This document shows, one piece after another, positions 1,188-12,472 of a stretch of 24,404 bases of DNA (the stretch's first letter is position 1; every line of letters starts with the position of its first letter). The notes beneath the pieces were generated by a model. It was not told where the DNA came from and ran no database searches. It worked only from the letters and a program-made list of their open reading frames with translations. The stretch comes from a virus. A program made the position numbers and the translations under genes. The stretch is taken from IMG/VR virus record IMGVR_UViG_3300020410_000059, positions 1 through 24,404 of that record. One strand, 5' to 3'.

Positions 1188-1919
1188 TTAATTAATTAAT
1201 CTTTTTTGTAATTCAACATGATCGACAACCCAAAGATTTCCCTGTGGATTGTCAAACTCTTCCTTGAGCATATTATACTCCCTTTTGATGTCTGTGTCAA
1301 CAAGTGCAATATAAATTAAATCTTTTCTTTCAGATATATCTCTACCCCATTCTAACCATCTTTTCTCTTCATTAAATACATTACCTTGATGTCCACCTGC
1401 TGAACCTCCATGTCCTAAACAATACTTATGACTTCCCCATGCAATTAACTTACCATCTTCCTTTACTTCAAAATCAATAGTTTTAACATCATTAACTGTA
1501 TTACCAAATTTCTTTTTGTATAATGCTTTAGGATATGTCTTACCATCTTTAGCAGGTCTTAAATAATTATTGGGTAATCCTTCTACTCTAATTCCATAGT
1601 GTTTTACAATTTGATCTATACCATTGAGTGTGAATACTTCATCCATACCACTCTGTTTTGATGACATCTTAGCAAGTACTGATGCCATTTCCATTGCAAT
1701 AAAACTATTTCCCTGTCCATTCATAAAGTAATCTCTCTCTAGACACTCATGATATTGTAACTGTCTGTCTAGTTGAGTTTCATTAATATATTTCTTGATA
1801 GGTTCTCTATCTAATATCCCTTCTCTTATAATCTTTGCGATCGTCCTTACTGTTTTTGTTTGTCTATCTGATCTTAAATTTGGTATATCAAATTCAAATA
1901 ATACTGGTCTAAGTTTCAT
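1188..1919 (-). CDS. Possible restriction-endonuclease-like protein (243 aa)
   Basis: This is the first gene of the leftmost operon, only about 20 bp downstream of an extended -10 promoter. I cannot name its family. Residues 147-153 (TIDFEVK) could be the D...ExK core of a PD-(D/E)XK nuclease. They are followed by a Gly/His-rich stretch at 162-181 (GSHKYCLGHGGSAGGHQGNV) and a strand-helix-strand ending in LWVVDHVELQKRL, a layout seen in some type II restriction enzymes. Its partner two genes downstream encodes a DNA methyltransferase, and that location is the main reason to suggest a nuclease. No Shine-Dalgarno is visible and the leader appears very short (about 14 nt). A non-nuclease DNA-binding role is equally possible. 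Confidence 0.5.
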   Translation of the reverse strand: MKLRPVLFEFDIPNLRSDRQTKTVRTIAKIIREGILDREPIKKYINETQLDRQLQYHECLERDYFMNGQGNSFIAMEMASVLAKMSSKQSGMDEVFTLNGIDQIVKHYGIRVEGLPNNYLRPAKDGKTYPKALYKKKFGNTVNDVKTIDFEVKEDGKLIAWGSHKYCLGHGGSAGGHQGNVFNEEKRWLEWGRDISERKDLIYIALVDTDIKREYNMLKEEFDNPQGNLWVVDHVELQKRLIN

Positions 1920-2299: not shown

Positions 2300-2968
2300 C
2301 TATTCAATTTCCAAATCTATATTAAATGCTACACTTATTCTTTCCTCGTCAGTTATATTCGGGCAAGTATTGTGCATTAACCATGATGGAAATAATATAA
2401 GTTCTCCATCACAAGGAATAAACTCCATACTTTGAGGGCATGTTTTTGTATTCTCTGGAAAATTACATGATTGAATTATATTATTAGGATTCAAGAATTG
2501 AATACCACCTTGATCTGGACTCACTCTCATATAATATACTCCTGATACTTGATAACCAGGATGACAATGCCACTCATGATGTCGATCTTTACCTTGAATA
2601 TTCATCCATGAGTTTTTAATATTGACTCTCCATCTTTCTCCACATAACCTACTCCATGCTGTAGAGGTAACATAATTTGTAGTCGTCTCTATTATTCTTT
2701 GTTTAAGATTGACTAGATTATACTTACCAATTAAATCATCCTTAATAAGATACATTGATTCATTCTTATTAACTGACTTTTGTTTTCTTGCTTCGGGATG
2801 TAGATATGATACTTCGCCATAATCATTACTACTTTGTATGTTTACAAGTGCTGATTTAACCTCCTTTTGTATTGGGTGGTAGTTGTCAGGTCTAGGCAAA
2901 TCTTTATATATTAAAGTCGGGAATATTGGCATTGTTCCCGAAAATGCCTGTACATTTACTTCATTCAT
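2300..2968 (-). CDS. 2OG-Fe(II) oxygenase of the cyanophage PF13759/TIGR02466 type (222 aa)
   Basis: This is a putative 2-oxoglutarate and Fe(II)-dependent dioxygenase. The signature core is visible: EWHCHPGYQVSGVYYMR (residues 132-148) supplies H134/H136, GELILFPSWLMH (188-199) supplies the distal H199, and EERISVAFNI (208-217) supplies R210, which should grip 2-oxoglutarate. This type is widespread in marine T4-like phages and its substrates are unknown. I chose ATG at 2968: GGGAGG lies 7 nt upstream and it makes a 4-bp ATGA overlap with the gene before. An in-frame TTG at 2983 would add five residues (MGGKK) that are just the ribosome site read as protein. The family call is firm; the substrate is not known. 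Confidence 0.88.
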   Translation of the reverse strand: MNEVNVQAFSGTMPIFPTLIYKDLPRPDNYHPIQKEVKSALVNIQSSNDYGEVSYLHPEARKQKSVNKNESMYLIKDDLIGKYNLVNLKQRIIETTTNYVTSTAWSRLCGERWRVNIKNSWMNIQGKDRHHEWHCHPGYQVSGVYYMRVSPDQGGIQFLNPNNIIQSCNFPENTKTCPQSMEFIPCDGELILFPSWLMHNTCPNITDEERISVAFNIDLEIE

Positions 2969-3156
2969 CTTTTTACCTCCCAATCTGGGTCATTAGTTGG
3001 GTGTACCCAAAATTCTATACCTGTGTTAGGATTTCGTACTGCCCATTTATCGAGTCGTTCAGTTATATACATGTAAGGATCTCTCCTCATATGATATGTG
3101 AAGATCTCCTTTGCTTTTCTTGTTTTAGGATAAACCCTAATTCTGTGAGTATCCAT
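2965..3156 (-). CDS. Small conserved-type phage protein (63 aa)
   Basis: A basic, aromatic-rich 63-aa product of unknown function. It contains YHMRRDPYMYITERLDKW and ends in GIEFWVHPTNDPDWEVKR, with a tryptophan-rich C-terminal part. It overlaps the 47-aa gene upstream by 20 bp and the oxygenase downstream by 4 bp (ATGA), which implies coupled translation. Proteins of this size and look are common between cyanophage structural genes. No known domain, signal peptide or membrane segment is seen. Confidence 0.7.
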   Translation of the reverse strand: MDTHRIRVYPKTRKAKEIFTYHMRRDPYMYITERLDKWAVRNPNTGIEFWVHPTNDPDWEVKR

Positions 3157-3280
3157 ACATTAAGTCAGATATTGTATCGTCTTGACTACCAAGTACAGAA
3201 GAGACCCAATCGTCTTCCCCCTCTTGAGTTTTTTCTTGTCTTGTGTCATAATCAACCTCAAGGTAGTTTTTCTTCTTCAT
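3137..3280 (-). CDS. Small acidic phage protein (47 aa)
   Basis: The frame starts with ATGAAGAAGAAAAAC at 3280 and encodes a 47-aa acidic product containing the segment DDWVSSVLGSQDDTISDLMY. It fills what would otherwise be a gap between the 66-aa and 63-aa genes, overlapping them by 23 and 20 bp in different frames. A competing frame, ATG at 3249, gives only 29 residues. The composition (a DDWV...DDTISD pattern) is like small proteins seen in cyanomyoviruses. Function unknown. Confidence 0.65.
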   Translation of the reverse strand: MKKKNYLEVDYDTRQEKTQEGEDDWVSSVLGSQDDTISDLMYGYSQN

Positions 3281-3458
3281 AACCAAATCCTCCATTTTGG
3301 AATTGACGTTCCTCCTCTGCCTTTGCTCTAAGTTCCCTTAAAGCAAGTTTGAGTTTATGCAATTCTTCACTATCGTATAGTGATGGGTCTTGCTCACTCT
3401 TTTTGAGTGCATGTTTTAAGAGTCTAATTTGACCCTTACTGCTGAAGAACTTTCTCAT
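3258..3458 (-). CDS. Small helical phage protein (66 aa)
   Basis: A charged, probably all-helical protein: residues 8-52 alternate Lys/Glu with leucines (LLKHALKKSEQ, LHKLKLALRELRAKAEEE) and look like a short coiled coil or helical hairpin. Its ATG shares one base with the stop of the oxygenase gene upstream (TAATG), so translation is probably coupled. No catalytic motif is seen and the function is unknown. Confidence 0.72.
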   Translation of the reverse strand: MRKFFSSKGQIRLLKHALKKSEQDPSLYDSEELHKLKLALRELRAKAEEERQFQNGGFGYEEEKLP

Positions 3459-4111
3459 TATAGTATGTCCATGTCTTTACCTGGTCGATTAGTGGACTCT
3501 TTGTCCTCTGTCACAGGTCGTATTGTGAAATTTGCACTAAATGTAATGCGTGTATTAGTTCCCTTATATGGTGTAACTAAATGTAGGTAATGTGATGGGA
3601 ACATTAAGACATCACCTTTTTTCACCTTTGGTATTGTTAGTTGCTCATCAGGTGTATTTAACACCTCATCAATACCCAATAGTCTAATTGTTGAGTGTTC
3701 TTTATTATAGAACCTAAAACCTACATCATCTTCATCTATCTCATAGAAATAAACCATGCTGATATTGGTTCTCATACTATCACTATGGTCATGAACCTCT
3801 TGATAGTTTCCTATATCATACTTATTTGCCCAACTATTGTCCATGATGATGTCAACATCACACTTAGTGCCGACCTCTGCAACAAATCTGTCCATAGTTG
3901 GTTTAAGATTTTTTAACCATCCGTTCCAAAGTTCTTTTGTATTGTTCTCGTGCATCCACGAGGTTCTGATATTACAACTCCAACCTTTTGGTTGTTGAAA
4001 ATTGTCTTCATTATTTAAGAAGTCGCTAAACATTTCTTTGGTTTCTTGTTGATCTTCTTCTGATAGACGATCATGAAAGAACCATTTAGGACTAAACACT
4101 TGTACTGTCAT
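3458..4111 (-). CDS. 2OG-Fe(II) oxygenase, second subtype (217 aa)
   Basis: This is a putative 2-oxoglutarate/Fe(II) dioxygenase distinct in sequence from the one at 2300-2968. The core reads YQEVHDHSDSMRTNISMVYF (103-122) with metal-ligand candidates H107 and H109, then GDVLMFPSHYLHLVTPY (166-182) with H177, and TNTRITFSANF (185-195) with R188 as 2-oxoglutarate contact. A cysteine- and tryptophan-containing N-terminal half (WSCNIRTSW, MDNSWANKY) matches the layout of cyanophage oxygenases. The start overlaps the previous gene by an ATGA. The C-terminal tail of about 20 residues is charged and probably disordered. Substrate unknown. Confidence 0.82.
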   Translation of the reverse strand: MTVQVFSPKWFFHDRLSEEDQQETKEMFSDFLNNEDNFQQPKGWSCNIRTSWMHENNTKELWNGWLKNLKPTMDRFVAEVGTKCDVDIIMDNSWANKYDIGNYQEVHDHSDSMRTNISMVYFYEIDEDDVGFRFYNKEHSTIRLLGIDEVLNTPDEQLTIPKVKKGDVLMFPSHYLHLVTPYKGTNTRITFSANFTIRPVTEDKESTNRPGKDMDIL

Positions 4112-6279: not shown

Positions 6280-6287
6280 TATTTATA
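6280..6287 (-). promoter_or_regulatory. T4-type late promoter (TATAAATA)
   Basis: A perfect TATAAATA on the minus strand, followed by CTTTTAG, ends 26 bp before the ATG of the 231-aa fibre gene. It overlaps the stop codon of the DUF401-like gene. This is the exact T4 late -10 box, read by a gp55-type sigma factor in T4-like phages. Confidence 0.75.
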
Positions 6288-7320
6288 TTAAAAATGTTGT
6301 TATCCAAGCATATCCTATTAACCATGCACATAATCCACCAAGTACTTTGTAATACTTTCTTATAGGTGTACCAAAGTATTGCTGTCCTATCATTAAACAC
6401 TTGTGTGCAGGTGACAGTAAATATCCTGAGTATTCTGTTGCCAAGAACCATACAAGATATTGAGGACCAAATATTATTACAAGTGCTGAGGTCATTCCTG
6501 CGTATTTTCCAGATGACCCCATAATCCATGCTGCTATTGTAGCAACTATTGATACTGGTATAATCATAGTTGGATTTGCTGCTGATAGATATGCCATTAC
6601 AGGTGCTTTGATGAGTCCTACCACACCACCAAGTGCTAATACTATCGTTGCAATGATAGCAAACTTTCCATCAAGAAACTGACCCCAGTTCCAATCCTTA
6701 CAAATATAAGCATAATAACAACACATTACTGCGAACCAAGGGAAGAAAAATATTGCTCCTGCTTTTCCTACACATAATAAGAACCATATCGTTGCTATAA
6801 ATGGTGCCCAACCTCTTAATGCTCTCTGCCAATTAAAGTCTTGTATTCCATCCATGTTAGGTAATACACTTCGGGGATCCACCTTACTAAAAATATACCA
6901 CCACGTGTACGTCAAACATATTACAAGTGGTATGAATGTATATGATAGCATCTGTCCATAAGTTATACCCAATGCTGCCATAGGTAATATGATAGTCTTT
7001 TCTAATGGACTCCACCAGTAGTAGTGATGAGTTGATAGGTAATCAATGATCCCAAAGTTGGATCTCTTTTTCTTATCAGGTGGTGCTATAGCATCTAATA
7101 ATGGTGCTGATAATGCAACTCTACCTGGTATTGGTAGCACTCCACCAAAGATGGATGTAATTGCTATCATGATACGATTATCTTTTACATATCTCTTTGC
7201 TAACGAATAAACATCATTGAGTACATGATACTTACGAATATATCCTCCCAGTATCATGATACCAAAGATATAACCCATGTAGAGTTCTTTCTGTAAGATT
7301 GATGCTAATATTTCAAACAT
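6283..7320 (-). CDS. DUF401-like multi-span membrane protein (345 aa)
   Basis: A hydrophobic inner-membrane protein with about eight to ten predicted spans. Two stretches look diagnostic of the DUF401 family of uncharacterised transporter-like proteins: GGVLPIPGRVALSAPLLD (59-76), a proline-rich loop near the N terminus, and SPAHKCLMIGQQYF (303-316) near the C terminus, where family members carry SPxHLCxxLTxxYF. A loop with STHHYYWWSPLEKTI (96-110) also fits. The family's substrate is unknown; remote similarity to anion or organic-acid transporters is often suggested. The start overlaps the 3' end of the oxygenase gene by 8 bp, implying coupled translation. A transporter of this kind is unusual in a phage structural region. 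The membrane call is firm; the family call is from memory of motifs. Confidence 0.72.
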   Translation of the reverse strand: MFEILASILQKELYMGYIFGIMILGGYIRKYHVLNDVYSLAKRYVKDNRIMIAITSIFGGVLPIPGRVALSAPLLDAIAPPDKKKRSNFGIIDYLSTHHYYWWSPLEKTIILPMAALGITYGQMLSYTFIPLVICLTYTWWYIFSKVDPRSVLPNMDGIQDFNWQRALRGWAPFIATIWFLLCVGKAGAIFFFPWFAVMCCYYAYICKDWNWGQFLDGKFAIIATIVLALGGVVGLIKAPVMAYLSAANPTMIIPVSIVATIAAWIMGSSGKYAGMTSALVIIFGPQYLVWFLATEYSGYLLSPAHKCLMIGQQYFGTPIRKYYKVLGGLCAWLIGYAWITTFLI

Positions 7321-7822
7321 AATTTAAGTTAAGAACTAAACGGTATTCTGAGTCAGTTGTAGTTGTACCTGTGTGCATCATTTGATTAGGGAATGTTACC
7401 ATCCTATTTGCAACTGATTCAACTTTTGTACCATCCTCAAACCTAGTGTATCCATTGTTGGTATTCAAATATAAAATGGATGTTTTCATATGATCTCTGA
7501 TCTTATGAGTTTCTGTGTCAGTGACATCTATATGTAATCCATGTTCTATTATTTTACCTTGATTAGGCATTATATTTGCCTTGATCTTAAAAATAGCAAT
7601 GGGTTGCAATCTCTGAAATATAGGTTGCAACATTGAAATTTGATCTCCTAGAGGGGAATATCTCTCATAAAAAAAGTGTATGAACTGCATGTTAAACATG
7701 TCATTCTGTTCATTATCATTAACAACTTTAGAGGTGTACCAAGGAAAATCCCATCTTAAAAATCCACTGTGTAGTTGCTCAAACTCTTTGAGAGATAAGA
7801 AATTGTCTTGAATGTCAATCAT
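7313..7822 (-). CDS. 2OG-Fe(II) oxygenase, third subtype (169 aa)
   Basis: A compact dioxygenase domain. GLHIDVTD (95-102) gives the HxD pair H97/D99, then strands TSILYLNTNNGYTRFEDG (114-131), a distal histidine in TFPNQMMHTG (H150), and R161 in YRLVLNLNYV for 2-oxoglutarate. The HxD (not HxH) and the YLNTNNGYTRFEDG strand place it nearer the prolyl-4-hydroxylase-like group than the two oxygenases at 2300-4111. It overlaps the 572-aa gene by ATGA and the DUF401-like gene by 8 bp. Its partners, a U32-like/methyltransferase fusion and a transporter, suggest that it hydroxylates a small molecule, RNA or protein in the same pathway. Confidence 0.82.
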   Translation of the reverse strand: MIDIQDNFLSLKEFEQLHSGFLRWDFPWYTSKVVNDNEQNDMFNMQFIHFFYERYSPLGDQISMLQPIFQRLQPIAIFKIKANIMPNQGKIIEHGLHIDVTDTETHKIRDHMKTSILYLNTNNGYTRFEDGTKVESVANRMVTFPNQMMHTGTTTTDSEYRLVLNLNYV

Positions 7823-9537
7823 TTTTCAATTACCAAGATATGTAGTCCGTTCCACCAACTCTTATCATCCTCTGCTACCTCTGTCCTGAGTGTCTTTTCA
7901 AAGACCACTTCTTTATCCTCTTGAAACTTCTTAGCATTGTCCACTACACCATTGAAGTTAGCATCATCTATGACTAAAATGTAATTATCTTTTGCCTGTT
8001 CATGTAAGTGTTCTAAGTTTGCAACCATATTATCACCCACTTCACCATCATAAAAGATAACGTCAGGTCTATATTCTTTATTAGGTAACCATTGTAATAC
8101 AGGTTTGACACAAAATCCTACTGAGGTATCAAGATTCATCCATTTGTCTGCGTTCTTGACCATTTCATCTACTGGATTCTCTACATCAAATTTATTTCCT
8201 AAATCTTTTTTCTTTGGTTTAACAACACCATCACTATAATCATCTATAGCATATGCGTTGACAGCACTATTCTTAAATAATGCTGCAAATAATGTGCTAC
8301 CCATGTAGCAACCAACGTCAGCATATACTGTTCCACGTTCTGAACATAGATTATTTAATAGGTGTCTGACTTTATTAGATGATAATCCTAAAACATCATA
8401 TCCCTCTGGATTAAACCTAGAATTGTTGTCCGTTGCTGCGTCAATCGCTCGGATCACACGATCCACATAAGGATTCATAGTACGTTTCTCCTTCTTCAGT
8501 ACAGATTCTACCACAGATTCACAATAGTTGCAATCCCAACAATCAAATCTGCAACTTTTAATTTTATTTCGCCATATATTTATAGGTGCATCTTTGATCT
8601 TCACATCAGTTAGATACCTATCAAATTCTGGATATAATATATCTTTACCTTCATCCCAACGTCTTATTAAGTCTAGTGACTCTACAAGTCTGGTTGCTGA
8701 CTCTCTACCATGTAACTTAAATACATCTATGACATCTAAAAACTCCTCCCAATCCTCTCTCCAAGGCGGTAGGTTTGCTTCTTTTAATGAAAATGCAGGA
8801 TCGTAGTGATCCCAACGTGAACAAGATACTCTACTAATATCACTATCAAAATACTGAGGGTCACTATCTTTTCTTGTACTATTATAATGATAATGTTCTG
8901 GCATAATCGGGCATCCACCCCAACAATGCTCGTTAGCAAGTAATGATAGCATTACTGGATTACCTTTCTCTGCACAATATTCTTTTGCTTCCTTGATTCT
9001 ATCTAAGAGTGGTCTGTCTCTCATGACATCACGATCAAGATTAATATAATAAAAACCTGCACTAGCAAGTGATACTATTTCATTAGGTTTTGATACCTCT
9101 CTGAGTATAGTATTCTTAATCTTTAATTCTGGATATTCTTTCTGTATCTGTCCTGTCATTACCCATGATGTATGGGGAATGGTTGCAGTTCTTACACCAT
9201 TATCATATAAAAATTTAAAGTTGGTGATAAATTCCTCAAGATTTTTTTGATCTGGTTTCACCCATATATTATTAAATGTCGCTGATAATGGTAGTCCTGT
9301 CTTGTCTCTGATATAAAATGCGTTCTTTATCGCTGCCTGTGCATCACCTGTACCACGAAATACATCACCCATTGCATCTTGCATGAATGGTGGCATCCTC
9401 GTAGTAAAATATAAATCGTATATTAAATGCTTATGTTCGTTTAGAAATGGTATTATCTTACCATCAATATAATCAGGTTCAATCTTCGGGTTTATCGGAA
9501 GGGAGAATAGATCTTCCTGTGACATTGTTGTGTGCAT
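7819..9537 (-). CDS. Peptidase-U32-like Fe-S protein fused to a SAM methyltransferase (572 aa)
   Basis: Two domains are visible. Residues about 30-340 look like a TIM barrel of the U32 family: VRTATIPHTSW and AGFYYINLDRD strands lead to NEHCWGGCPIMPEHYHYN (202-219), close to the NEGCxxxCPxRxxH signature. More cysteines follow at C239 and in a C329-x3-C333-x2-C336-x2-C339 cluster, enough for an iron-sulfur centre. Residues about 375-572 are a class I methyltransferase: motif I at 405-414 (YADVGCYMGS), acidic residues at 432-433, FYDGEVGD (495-502) and VIDDANFNG (522-530), like the O-methyltransferase group of TylF and TrmR. Known U32 proteins (TrhP, RlhA, UbiU/V) perform hydroxylation, and TrmR methylates the product of TrhP. 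The substrate here is unknown. It overlaps the 301-aa gene by 59 bp; M5 is an alternative start. Confidence 0.75.
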   Translation of the reverse strand: MHTTMSQEDLFSLPINPKIEPDYIDGKIIPFLNEHKHLIYDLYFTTRMPPFMQDAMGDVFRGTGDAQAAIKNAFYIRDKTGLPLSATFNNIWVKPDQKNLEEFITNFKFLYDNGVRTATIPHTSWVMTGQIQKEYPELKIKNTILREVSKPNEIVSLASAGFYYINLDRDVMRDRPLLDRIKEAKEYCAEKGNPVMLSLLANEHCWGGCPIMPEHYHYNSTRKDSDPQYFDSDISRVSCSRWDHYDPAFSLKEANLPPWREDWEEFLDVIDVFKLHGRESATRLVESLDLIRRWDEGKDILYPEFDRYLTDVKIKDAPINIWRNKIKSCRFDCWDCNYCESVVESVLKKEKRTMNPYVDRVIRAIDAATDNNSRFNPEGYDVLGLSSNKVRHLLNNLCSERGTVYADVGCYMGSTLFAALFKNSAVNAYAIDDYSDGVVKPKKKDLGNKFDVENPVDEMVKNADKWMNLDTSVGFCVKPVLQWLPNKEYRPDVIFYDGEVGDNMVANLEHLHEQAKDNYILVIDDANFNGVVDNAKKFQEDKEVVFEKTLRTEVAEDDKSWWNGLHILVIEK

Positions 9538-10384
9538 AATCAGTTAAAATACCAGTTGTATCAAACATTTGAGGTTTTTCATCACCCATGAGATGTTCGA
9601 CCTTTTTCTCTGCTGCTTCTTTTATCTTACCTATGTTGATATTCATAGCAGTAGAATATGTTAATGCAAGATCAGTAACTGCTGCCTGATCTTCTGGTGA
9701 CATCATTAACATACTATCAAGATTACCTGCCTGTAGTCTACCAGTTGTTAGCAAATCAAGAGCAGATTGCTTTGCCATCCTTGCAATCCAATACTTATGC
9801 TCTTCTCTCTCCTCAATCTCTTTATTTAATACTGTCTCTTTTAGTTCTTCAAAATCATAATCATCATCAGGTTTCTTTCCTAACTTTTCTTTAATAATTC
9901 TGAGTAAACCATCTATCTCTTCTTTAGATTGACGCATTTTATTATCCCACACCTGTAGGTCAATGATGAGTAATTCTAACTCAAATCCTTTATCTGTTTT
10001 ATAAAATTTATTTTCTTCTTCTGCCATTTCTGACTTTGTACGTTCAATATCATTCAACGTACGTTTATATTGTATAGTTACCTTTTGAAGAGCATTGAGA
10101 CGAGTCTGTATTTCCATAACGACTTGTCTCATTTGTCGCCAAGGGGTGACTTGTGAGTTTACTACAAAATATTTGTTTTGATATTCCGTCTGCCCGAAAA
10201 ACTGTGAGTCTGTCCAATCAATTAAATTCTTATCAAATTCACTCAAGTCCCAACCTTCCTTGAGGTCTCTCATATCTGATAGGGTCTTTTCAAATGGAAT
10301 AGAAACTTTTGGTTTCCTATGTCCCTTAGAACTGGATTCCGTATTTAATTGCTTCTTTTCTGCTGATGAGTCCTGTTGTGTCAT
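9479..10384 (-). CDS. Coiled-coil phage protein of unknown function (301 aa)
   Basis: I do not recognise this protein. It starts with a polar, Ser/Lys-rich segment, then a compact region (WDLSEFDKNLIDWTDSQFFG), and from about residue 80 to 205 a strongly charged heptad-like helix (coiled coil). A region of Met/Leu/Ala follows (LQAGNLDSMLMMSPEDQAAV) and the C terminus is polar. It has no signal or membrane segment. The ATG at 10384 follows GGAAGG and lies inside the 251-aa gene (59-bp overlap). A place directly after the fibre array and the 251-aa protein suggests a fibre-assembly or virion role. Confidence 0.72.
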   Translation of the reverse strand: MTQQDSSAEKKQLNTESSSKGHRKPKVSIPFEKTLSDMRDLKEGWDLSEFDKNLIDWTDSQFFGQTEYQNKYFVVNSQVTPWRQMRQVVMEIQTRLNALQKVTIQYKRTLNDIERTKSEMAEEENKFYKTDKGFELELLIIDLQVWDNKMRQSKEEIDGLLRIIKEKLGKKPDDDYDFEELKETVLNKEIEEREEHKYWIARMAKQSALDLLTTGRLQAGNLDSMLMMSPEDQAAVTDLALTYSTAMNINIGKIKEAAEKKVEHLMGDEKPQMFDTTGILTDYAHNNVTGRSILPSDKPED

Positions 10385-11081
10385 CCTGTGTGCACCTTCC
10401 GTAATCTAAACATTGTTCACTTGTCATTGACTCTCCAAAGTAATCTTCTAAGAAAACTACAACGTCCATCACATTTGCAGATGATTTTAGTTTGGTAATC
10501 AATGTCTGTTCTTGAACTGCAAGGTCATAGACTTTAGTTTTCCATGCTTCTTGCTTCTCAATCACTATAGCAGCAAAGTCTGCGGTTGTCAATCCTCTAA
10601 CCTCTGCTAATCTATGTATCAGTTTTGTCTCAAAGGAATTATCAGCAATATATGCGGTTGCCTCACATAATTGATCTACCCATGTTTCTCTTTCTAAGAA
10701 ACCCCATGAGTCATATAATGTTGAATACCTTTCTTCAAATATCTCTTGAATCTTTAATGTTATCACCCCTATCATAAAAGGTTTGACATACTTAGCACCA
10801 AGTGTAGAGTCTATTGCTACCTTTTCTTTTACTTGATTTGAGTCTCCATCAAGAGAATACTCAGATTTCATTGATCGAGTCTCACCCCATAGAGTTCTAC
10901 CATATGTTGCTGTATCATGATCAAATCTTAGATAATGCACATGTGGTGGTATGTATTGAAACTGCTCATCATCAAGTTCATAGTATTCCAAAGCAAGGTT
11001 CTCACCAACCTTTGTACCTACAGTTGCGATATGAGGATATTTCTCTTCGTCAATGACGATTATGTCAGGTTTCGTTGCCAT
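10326..11081 (-). CDS. Probable fibre-assembly or fibre-associated protein (251 aa)
   Basis: The gene begins at a TAATG junction with the 463-aa fibre. The N-terminal third is beta-rich (DIIVIDEEKYPHIATVG, PHVHYLRFDHDTATYGR) and the centre is helical (FEERYSTLYDSWGFLERETW, then LIHRLAEVRGLTTADFAAIV). The latter is reminiscent of the DUF4376-type tail-fibre assembly domain, in which an R-x-x-x-x-x-G helix pair is common. Two cysteines near the C terminus (EQCLDYGRC) are notable. Position directly behind a run of fibres fits a chaperone or assembly factor. I consider the assembly role likely but unproven; a structural role is the alternative. Confidence 0.65.
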   Translation of the reverse strand: MATKPDIIVIDEEKYPHIATVGTKVGENLALEYYELDDEQFQYIPPHVHYLRFDHDTATYGRTLWGETRSMKSEYSLDGDSNQVKEKVAIDSTLGAKYVKPFMIGVITLKIQEIFEERYSTLYDSWGFLERETWVDQLCEATAYIADNSFETKLIHRLAEVRGLTTADFAAIVIEKQEAWKTKVYDLAVQEQTLITKLKSSANVMDVVVFLEDYFGESMTSEQCLDYGRCTQDDTTGLISRKEAIKYGIQF

Positions 11082-12472
11082 TAGTAATTAGGAATAGTTG
11101 TACCATAATTGTACCTTACAGTACCATCTGTCTCAGTACCAGATATTGCACTCGCTGATGAGCAGTGTGCTGAACTCATACCAGAGTGACCTGTAGGTGG
11201 TGATGATCCACCAAGATTATTGTATGAGTCGGTTGCATAGTTCACCTTAAAGGTGTTATTGTTCTGGGAACCATTGTAATTACCTAAACAATATCCCTTC
11301 CTCATACCCATTTCAAAGTTTTCTTCACCCATGTTACCAAAATTTAGACCTCTAACCTGTATGCCTGTAGTATCATCACACTTCTGATTACCATTCTGGT
11401 TGTTATTACCAGTTCCAACATACATATGTCCGATCATAGTAGGAAGTATTTTCTTCCAACCATTTCCGCCAGGTCCGTGGTTCCATGATGTCCACGATTC
11501 GTTTGCCCATCTAAATCCTGATCTACTATTATCTCTCTTCCACCATCCCATCATTCTACCATGTCCTCCCCATGTTGGGTCAGCACCACCATCATTTTGG
11601 TTTGGTGGGAATCCAGAAGTTCTCATGACTTCAGTTTTTAAGTTAAATACGTCAGTTCTTGAGTTACCACCACCATGTAAGTATGAATATCCTCCTGCAA
11701 ATACATGATCTTGGAACGAACCCATAGAACCTCTGTTCACTGTCATATCCCATGCAGATTGATGAGTTATTCCTGCTTCGTTTACCATACTAAAACCAGA
11801 GGTATATGTTGATGATCCTCTGTATGTGTTCTCCATTGAGTGATAGAAGTGTCTTCTATCATTCCATGATCCAGACATATATGAACCTGATCTGTCTAGT
11901 GTATCTCCTAAGTTTGTTGATGTATCAGTAGCATGAACTGTTCTATTAACGTTTCTCCAAGGTGAACCTGATCTATATCCTCCTCCAACATATCCATGAG
12001 TCCAAATTCTTGCCATTGACCAGTCTGTATCTGTACCATCTAGTGACCAATATGATGATGTACCATCAGATTTAAGTGAAGCATTGACTGAATAATCATC
12101 ACTATATCTACTTGTACTCTGTGCAGGTATTCCACCTGACCCTGCAATAGGTCCCCATTCTACAGCATTTGTTGAAGAATTAAGTGCATACCCTTCAAAG
12201 GTTCGGTCGGTACTATTATAGCGGAACATCCCTTCTACTGCTGATCCTGGTCTATCTGCAGTAGATCCTTTCGGAACTATCATACTGTCAGTAGTTGCAA
12301 AATCTATTGATACTCTTGGTGAAGTTGTACCAACACCAACTCTATTATTAACCGAATCAATATAGAAAGTTCCTGAGTCAAAGTTAAAGTTGCCATTAGA
12401 CGCTAGTTGGAACTCAGCAGTACTACCGCCTCCACTTAGAGATACAACTTTATCAACGTTTAATTGCGACAT
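11081..12472 (-). CDS. Tail fibre, Trp/Gly/Asn-rich C-terminal domain (463 aa)
   Basis: The start MSQLNVDKVVSLSGGGSTAE is nearly the same leader as the 469-aa fibre. A short beta repeat (FYIDSVNNRVGVGTTSPRVS, 37-56) resembles intramolecular-chaperone and fibre-shaft segments. The shared module follows at 66-110 (VPKGSTADRPGSAVEGMFRY...VEWGPIAG). Residues 120-463 are rich in Trp, Gly, Asn, His and Ser (WTHGYVGGGYRSGSPW, MMGWWKRDNSRSGFRW) and look like a receptor-binding tip; I cannot name the fold. It has the strongest local signals in the array: a GATAAATA late box at 12497-12504 and AGGAG 13 nt before the ATG. Confidence 0.82.
   Translation of the reverse strand: MSQLNVDKVVSLSGGGSTAEFQLASNGNFNFDSGTFYIDSVNNRVGVGTTSPRVSIDFATTDSMIVPKGSTADRPGSAVEGMFRYNSTDRTFEGYALNSSTNAVEWGPIAGSGGIPAQSTSRYSDDYSVNASLKSDGTSSYWSLDGTDTDWSMARIWTHGYVGGGYRSGSPWRNVNRTVHATDTSTNLGDTLDRSGSYMSGSWNDRRHFYHSMENTYRGSSTYTSGFSMVNEAGITHQSAWDMTVNRGSMGSFQDHVFAGGYSYLHGGGNSRTDVFNLKTEVMRTSGFPPNQNDGGADPTWGGHGRMMGWWKRDNSRSGFRWANESWTSWNHGPGGNGWKKILPTMIGHMYVGTGNNNQNGNQKCDDTTGIQVRGLNFGNMGEENFEMGMRKGYCLGNYNGSQNNNTFKVNYATDSYNNLGGSSPPTGHSGMSSAHCSSASAISGTETDGTVRYNYGTTIPNY

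Follow-up and report, generated by a model that had tools for sequence, protein, structure and literature searches.

A U32-type domain fused to an O-methyltransferase in cyanophages, a candidate two-step tailoring enzyme next to the tail-fibre genes

The window (the whole stretch of viral DNA analysed here, 24,404 nucleotides) encodes a protein of 572 amino acids in which a divergent U32-type domain is followed in the same chain by an O-methyltransferase. The protein represents a new subfamily, and its combination of known domains is likewise new; confidence in both the fusion and the U32 ancestry is high. It is proposed, with a probability of roughly 0.5, to be a two-step tailoring enzyme which would hydroxylate and then O-methylate a protein of the adjacent fibre module. 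The features of the window are as follows.

7819..9537, minus strand: U32-like/O-methyltransferase fusion gene, 572 aa (phrog_1458; 'T4-LIKE GC 354' in annotated cyanophage records)
8497..9537, minus strand: N-terminal U32-type TIM-barrel domain, residues 1-347 (AlphaFold model, 5d88 match, phrog_36869)
8911..8925, minus strand: C205-x3-C209 (NEHCWGGCP), part of the presumed Fe-S site, invariant in 50/50 representatives
8821..8823, minus strand: C239, conserved cysteine, invariant in 50/50
8521..8553, minus strand: C329-x3-C333-x2-C336-x2-C339 (CRFDCWDCNYC), four-cysteine cluster ending the U32 half, invariant in 50/50
7822..8421, minus strand: C-terminal SAM O-methyltransferase domain, residues 373-572 (PF13578 matches, TrmR 5zw3 with Z 15.0)
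8047..8049, minus strand: D497, candidate metal ligand (FYDG motif), invariant in the viral alignment and aligned with the Asp region of TrmR
7963..7968, minus strand: D524-D525, candidate metal ligands (DDAN motif; Asp-Asn in TrmR), invariant, from the TrmR profile alignment
9479..10384, minus strand: phrog_1409 helical protein, directly upstream with a 59-base overlap with the fusion gene, a near-obligate neighbour
10326..11081, minus strand: phrog_1604 protein, second conserved upstream neighbour (115 phage records; same position in fused and split loci)
11081..12472, minus strand: phrog_1417 tail-fibre-like protein, upstream of the module (no function in PHROGs; 'sericin 1 precursor-like' in P-HM2)
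7313..7822, minus strand: 2OG-Fe(II) oxygenase-like gene, directly downstream with a 4-base overlap (PF13640, weak DUF6445)

Identity and distribution of the fusion gene

The open reading frame at 7819-9537 is intact and overlaps genes at both of its ends, and the plus strand of the same region contains many stops. Comparison with PHROGs assigned the protein to phrog_1458 (E 3.6e-278), a family labelled 'unknown function'. The virus is a T4-like cyanomyovirus of Prochlorococcus/Synechococcus, with the Prochlorococcus phages P-SSM3 and P-SSM4 as nearest relatives. The full-length fusion was retrieved by tblastn in 123 of 50,697 phage records, all of them cultured cyanophages; identity goes down to 49% among the matches listed, and the homologues are annotated 'hypothetical protein'. 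A first scan of IMG/VR gave 415 stretches with relatives of the fusion, and a scan led by the N-terminal half gave at least 560. In the deposited P-SSM3 genome (NC_021559; locus L081, about 9000-10700) the copy was recovered by tblastn in two pieces and has no RefSeq CDS; either the phage gene is frameshifted or the deposited sequence contains an error from sequencing.

When the whole window protein was compared with Pfam and NCBIfam, no useful match was obtained, Csx20 (E 0.02) lying far below its cut-off, and phmmer against the PDB returned a single methyltransferase match at chance level. A role in defence or counter-defence was rejected, as PADLOC produced 0 matches for the fusion gene and five other genes. 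In an open-access library, no paper was found on a U32 protein in cyanophages or on this U32/methyltransferase fusion, and no description of the fusion enzyme was found there among literature on U32 with phage, methyltransferase, prephenate or RiPP, or on tail-fibre hydroxylation in phages.

The N-terminal half belongs to the U32 superfamily

The first-pass annotation had read the N-terminal half as U32-like from a NEHCWGGCP signature and further cysteine clusters. The signature is located at residues 202-210, and the other conserved cysteines at positions 239, 329, 333, 336 and 339. Direct searches did not detect the family: PF01136 matched neither the window protein nor 29 viral relatives, and a PDB profile search using the N-terminal half gave nothing. 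The half has a PHROGs family to itself, phrog_36869. An AlphaFold model of residues 1-349, built from 18 sequences (pLDDT 82.5, pTM 0.84), found its best structural match in 5d88, the U32 protein Mk0906 (Z 16.1, rmsd 3.0 A over 225 residues), and the following rows were unrelated TIM barrels with Z of 13.0 and lower. Foldseek ranked MTHFR chains first and second by E-value, TM-score and Z being higher for 5d88. When the full-length model was used, 5d88 was the only TIM barrel among the top matches (Z 15.5), and Foldseek gave pyruvate kinase and other composite matches with rmsd above 20 A, a difficulty that was resolved by folding the N-terminal half alone.

The profile evidence is transitive. 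The family profile matches bacterial proteins, from the phylum to which the Syntrophaceae homologue belongs, at E-values down to 4e-18, and some of these exceed the Pfam cut-off for PF01136 (L138, 52 bits against 22.4). In profile-profile comparison, the phage family aligned with the PF01136-positive bacterial proteins (E 5e-25, 99.6%, 313 columns), and the latter with canonical U32 proteins (E 1.5e-7, 94%); direct comparison of the phage family profile with the small canonical U32 profile was not significant (2.2%). Judged by the predicted fold and this stepwise path, the N-terminal half is a member of the U32 superfamily, in agreement with the earlier reading. A radical SAM domain, which the first-pass annotation had named as the contrary case, was rejected: the CX3CX2C motif is absent (P-I-M follows C205-x3-C209, with no third cysteine at +3) and the fold is that of U32.

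The seven cysteines (C205, C209, C239, C329, C333, C336 and C339) form the pattern C-x3-C-x29-C-x89-C-x3-C-x2-C-x2-C. They are invariant in 32 viral representatives and in 50/50 representatives of a broader set that takes in the split forms from phages as well as bacterial homologues and a U32 outgroup. This invariance is far beyond chance and disposes of the concern, raised at the outset, that the cysteines might vary among homologues. As ligands, they would suffice to hold one 4Fe-4S cluster and the greater part of another, which is compatible with Fe-S binding. A review has argued for a need of more than one cluster (PMC11574389), and in the hydroxylases UbiU/V the 4Fe-4S is held by conserved cysteines (PMC6747719). 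The pattern common to U32 oxidases is C-x6-C-x15-C-x3/4-C (PMC11574389, PMC6747719), and E162 and C-x6-C are essential in TrhP. Neither this TrhP/RlhA-type pattern nor the essential glutamate is kept in the fusion. The N-terminal half, with its own seven-cysteine pattern, is distinct from TrhP, RlhA and UbiU/V, and in view of the new spacing and the missing glutamate its chemistry could differ from that of TrhP. The analogy with TrhP and TrmR drawn from the first reading holds for the U32 fold and the TrmR-class methyltransferase, and not for the E162/C-x6-C arrangement of TrhP.

The C-terminal half resembles cation-dependent O-methyltransferases

The C-terminal half had been assigned to the SAM methyltransferases from its motifs. 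This half of the window protein has no Pfam match of its own; PF13578 (Methyltransf_24) matches 17 of 30 family members, with a best E-value of 7e-11. Of the HMM matches anticipated, those of PF01136 and PF13578 to the window protein itself did not appear, and that of PF13578 was obtained with its relatives. The model of the C-terminal half aligns with SAM O-methyltransferases of the cation-dependent class with Z of 14-15.7. TrmR (5zw3), which had been singled out for structural comparison, falls in the same structural class with Z 15.0, tied with many other O-methyltransferases, and is the best PDB profile match of this half, a weak one (E 0.009). Residues D497, D524 and D525 are invariant, and in this single weak TrmR profile alignment the third metal position is Asp, not Asn. 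Sequence and model thus assign the C-terminal half to the O-methyltransferases of the COMT/TrmR class, and the match to TrmR supports an O-methyltransferase, not orthology to TrmR.

The two halves occur as adjacent genes in other phages

A further 53 phage contigs encode the U32 half as a separate protein of 341-359 aa, and a methyltransferase gene comes directly after it, the two genes overlapping in 51 of the 53 loci. The split methyltransferase is homologous to the fused domain, as indicated by 36% identity to a fused relative and by the profile of the 53 split methyltransferases, which scores the window C-terminal half at 103 bits. The stand-alone form matches PF13578 with 30 bits (cut-off 26.3). 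A radical SAM gene is located directly upstream of the U32 gene in 53/53 split loci. Phylogenetic analysis placed the 33 fused representatives together, with a support of 1.0 for 31 of them and only 0.3 for all 33. The split forms grouped in a clade of their own (support 1.0).

Fusion in one phage group and adjacency in the other give Rosetta-stone support for a joint function of the halves, and the idea of two activities coupled in one phage protein has been strengthened by it. That this function is hydroxylation followed by methylation is considered somewhat better than an even bet.

Gene neighbourhood in phages

Fused and split phages display the same gene order: fibre-like genes, then phrog_1409 and phrog_1604, then the U32 gene. 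The phrog_1409 gene, whose product has no enzyme family match, is next to the fusion or U32 gene in almost every viral locus whose flank is long enough, and is present in 76 of the 80 well-flanked fused loci. It was found in 123 phage records, whose distribution over organisms and hosts equals that of the fusion gene, counts and breakdowns being compared rather than full accession lists. Shared genomes do not trivially explain this agreement, since the 2OG neighbour occurs in 256 phage records and the DUF401 gene of the window in 9.

The latter gene (6283-7320, minus strand) encodes a multi-pass membrane protein (PF04165, 44 bits, cut-off 24), probably permease-like. Genes of similar appearance lie close to the U32 gene in many viral loci, 38 of the 53 split ones among them; the cultured phage records with the window's gene are only the 9 mentioned. 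The 2OG neighbour (7313-7822, minus strand) carries the label 'DNA endonuclease V (denV)' in P-SSM4, P-SSM3 and phrog_274 of PHROGs. It scores 26.4 bits with PF13640 (E 1.4e-5), just under the cut-off of 27, and shows an HxD...H pattern and a weak match to DUF6445. Its sequence is 2OG-Fe(II) oxygenase-like, and the denV label is probably a propagated misannotation. Its cluster is found downstream more often than any other (68 loci), and 71 of the 80 well-flanked fused loci carry a gene from the clusters interpreted as 2OG oxygenases. Two more genes of the window (2300-4111, minus strand) have P-SSM3 counterparts annotated as 2OG-Fe(II) oxygenase, such genes being dense around the locus.

Further neighbours were recorded. 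A plant-type 2Fe-2S ferredoxin gene (PF00111, 91 bits) lies about 27 bases downstream of the fusion gene in L023, L025 and L026, and its product is a possible electron donor or redox partner. Tryptophan-halogenase-like flavoenzyme genes (PF04820) adjoin the fusion gene in uncultured phage contigs (L102 7227-8801, L222 7284-8801 and others). The gene at 1188-1919 (minus strand) has a homologue annotated 'restriction endonuclease II' in P-SSM3, located there beside two DNA methyltransferase genes, with which it possibly forms a phage-borne restriction-modification set.

Together with the 2OG oxygenases, the fusion and the halogenase-like flavoenzyme might modify a metabolite of the host or the phage. 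The frequency of the 2OG genes fits such small-molecule tailoring, as does a PF04820 gene (314 bits) in 17 of the 80 well-flanked fused loci, and enzymes of the PF13578 family often have small molecules as substrate. A small molecule is also the substrate of UbiU/V (PMC6747719). However, no genes for the ligases, synthases or exporters that a biosynthetic pathway would have were seen, and the sole strictly co-occurring partner is the helical phrog_1409 protein, so that a metabolite is regarded as an unlikely target.

Bacterial relatives

Across the 84,980 genomes scanned, six non-fused loci were recovered from bacterial bins (38-41% identity), with phrog_1409 absent from their flanks. Among 298 genomes in the phylum of the Sulfurimonas homologue, only that one genome contains a homologue, which indicates that homologues are rare in bacteria. 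In L125 and L127 the U32 gene is located between the contig edge and genes read by eye as TolC, an ABC exporter and HlyD (type I secretion), the edge of L125 being the C-terminal end of a repeat-type protein. In L128 the genes after the U32 gene encode DUF6445 and a protein of the radical SAM/SPASM type resembling peptide maturases. A giant repeat protein, a sulfotransferase, CysD and a CysN-APS kinase fusion are encoded near the U32 gene of L124. The U32 gene of L126, next to type III CRISPR-looking genes, fits no scheme, and L123 is a phage-like contig. These neighbourhoods, six in number and some at contig ends, are suggestive of a hydroxyl-forming enzyme with a capping partner, acting on proteins or peptides.

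Possible U32 pairs were also observed. In L124 a gene at 7156-7932, coding for a 258-aa protein with a FANAGCAYNCP motif and no Pfam match, adjoins the U32-like gene; by analogy with UbiV for UbiU, its product may be a distant U32-type partner. Paralogues of the NEGC type come directly after a canonical U32 gene in L143 and L145 and beside one in L147, perhaps as heterodimer partners.

Proposed function and alternatives

According to the proposed model, the divergent U32 TIM barrel would bind Fe-S via the seven invariant cysteines. The U32 half would most likely install a hydroxyl without O2, as characterised U32 oxidases do, with prephenate as the probable oxygen donor. The fused cation-dependent-type O-methyltransferase would then cap the new hydroxyl with the methyl group of SAM, presumably at the same site. 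The likeliest substrate would be an adjacent protein of the tail-fibre module (the phrog_1417 fibre, phrog_1604 or phrog_1409), modified post-translationally as a virion or assembly protein. The phrog_1417 protein is a possible substrate, and phrog_1409 a possible substrate or adaptor; the choice of a fibre-module protein is tentative. U32 oxidases are known for working independently of O2, and such chemistry is odd in an oxygenic host and in a phage that also carries 2OG oxygenases. Against the model, the methyl group could be placed on a hydroxyl that the substrate already has, and the proximity of the fibre genes may reflect only a late-gene block.

Alternatively, the U32 half might carry out a different Fe-S reaction, or a peptidase-like one, on a protein, with the O-methyltransferase methylating an existing side chain or the U32 product. 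The loss of the TrhP/RlhA cysteine spacing and catalytic glutamate, the name peptidase given to the solved U32 structure 5d88 and the radical SAM partner in all split loci would fit this. It is nevertheless quite unlikely, as U32 members with established chemistry and conserved cysteines are linked to hydroxylation (PMC11574389, PMC6747719), and a hydroxyl product suits both the O-methyltransferase pairing and the sulfotransferase and PAPS-type genes of L124. Very unlikely is a single-polypeptide modifier of host tRNA or rRNA making a 5-methoxypyrimidine (ho5U then mo5U type), as do TrhP and TrmR in Bacillus: U32 membership with a TrmR-class fold, TrmR as best PDB profile match (E 0.009) and the RNA substrates of known U32 oxidases (PMC11574389) are outweighed by the many O-methyltransferases with equal Z, a window with no tRNA gene, nearest U32 relatives that are neither TrhP nor RlhA, phage neighbours consisting of fibre and tailoring genes and bacterial homologues accompanied by secretion or peptide-modifying genes. 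The tRNA target considered in the first-pass annotation is possible but finds no support in the genomic context, which points instead to a tail-fibre-associated protein.

If the two-step model is correct, it would connect a poorly understood class of O2-independent hydroxylases with phages, and probably with proteins as substrates, in marine viruses that are among the most abundant. Hydroxylation and capping in one chain would be useful for working out U32 chemistry, modified fibres could alter host recognition, and the fixed link to phrog_1409 makes the substrate question directly testable. The most far-reaching version is rather doubtful: it would make this the first U32-type Fe-S enzyme acting on a protein, forming, independently of O2, a methoxylated amino-acid residue in a tail-fibre-module protein with host prephenate and SAM, with the same seven-cysteine branch modifying secreted adhesins or peptides in bacteria.

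Comparison with known systems

The closest functional parallel is TrhP (YegQ; YrrN-YrrO in Bacillus) with TrmR, which convert tRNA to ho5U and then mo5U and likewise combine a U32 domain with a COMT-class O-methyltransferase. The phage enzyme is, in contrast, one polypeptide with a different cysteine pattern and no sign of an RNA substrate, and its metal site reads Asp-Asp (from the weak profile alignment) where TrmR has Asp-Asn. The anaerobic ubiquinone hydroxylases UbiU-UbiV share the U32 superfamily and conserved cysteines, the 4Fe-4S being demonstrated for UbiU/V and expected in the phage protein. They form a heterodimer, whereas the phage enzyme is a single chain, and their patterns (C-x6-C-x16-C-x38-C in UbiU, C-xn-C-x12-C-x3-C in UbiV; PMC6747719) differ from the phage spacing given above. 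RlhA, responsible for ho5C2501 in 23S rRNA, has a single U32 domain and an extra cysteine-rich part (PMC11574389), as has the phage protein, but sequence, cysteine spacing and fusion partner differ. Mk0906 (PDB 5D88) has the fold in common with the N-terminal half, with only 12% identity over the aligned part and no methyltransferase. The bacterial NEGC-type U32 proteins (L136-L140), several of which are above the PF01136 cut-off, show only 20-22% identity, have other neighbours and lack the methyltransferase; they nevertheless share with the phage N-terminal half the seven cysteines, the N-E-x-C motif, H215, D262, K274 and G277-R278.
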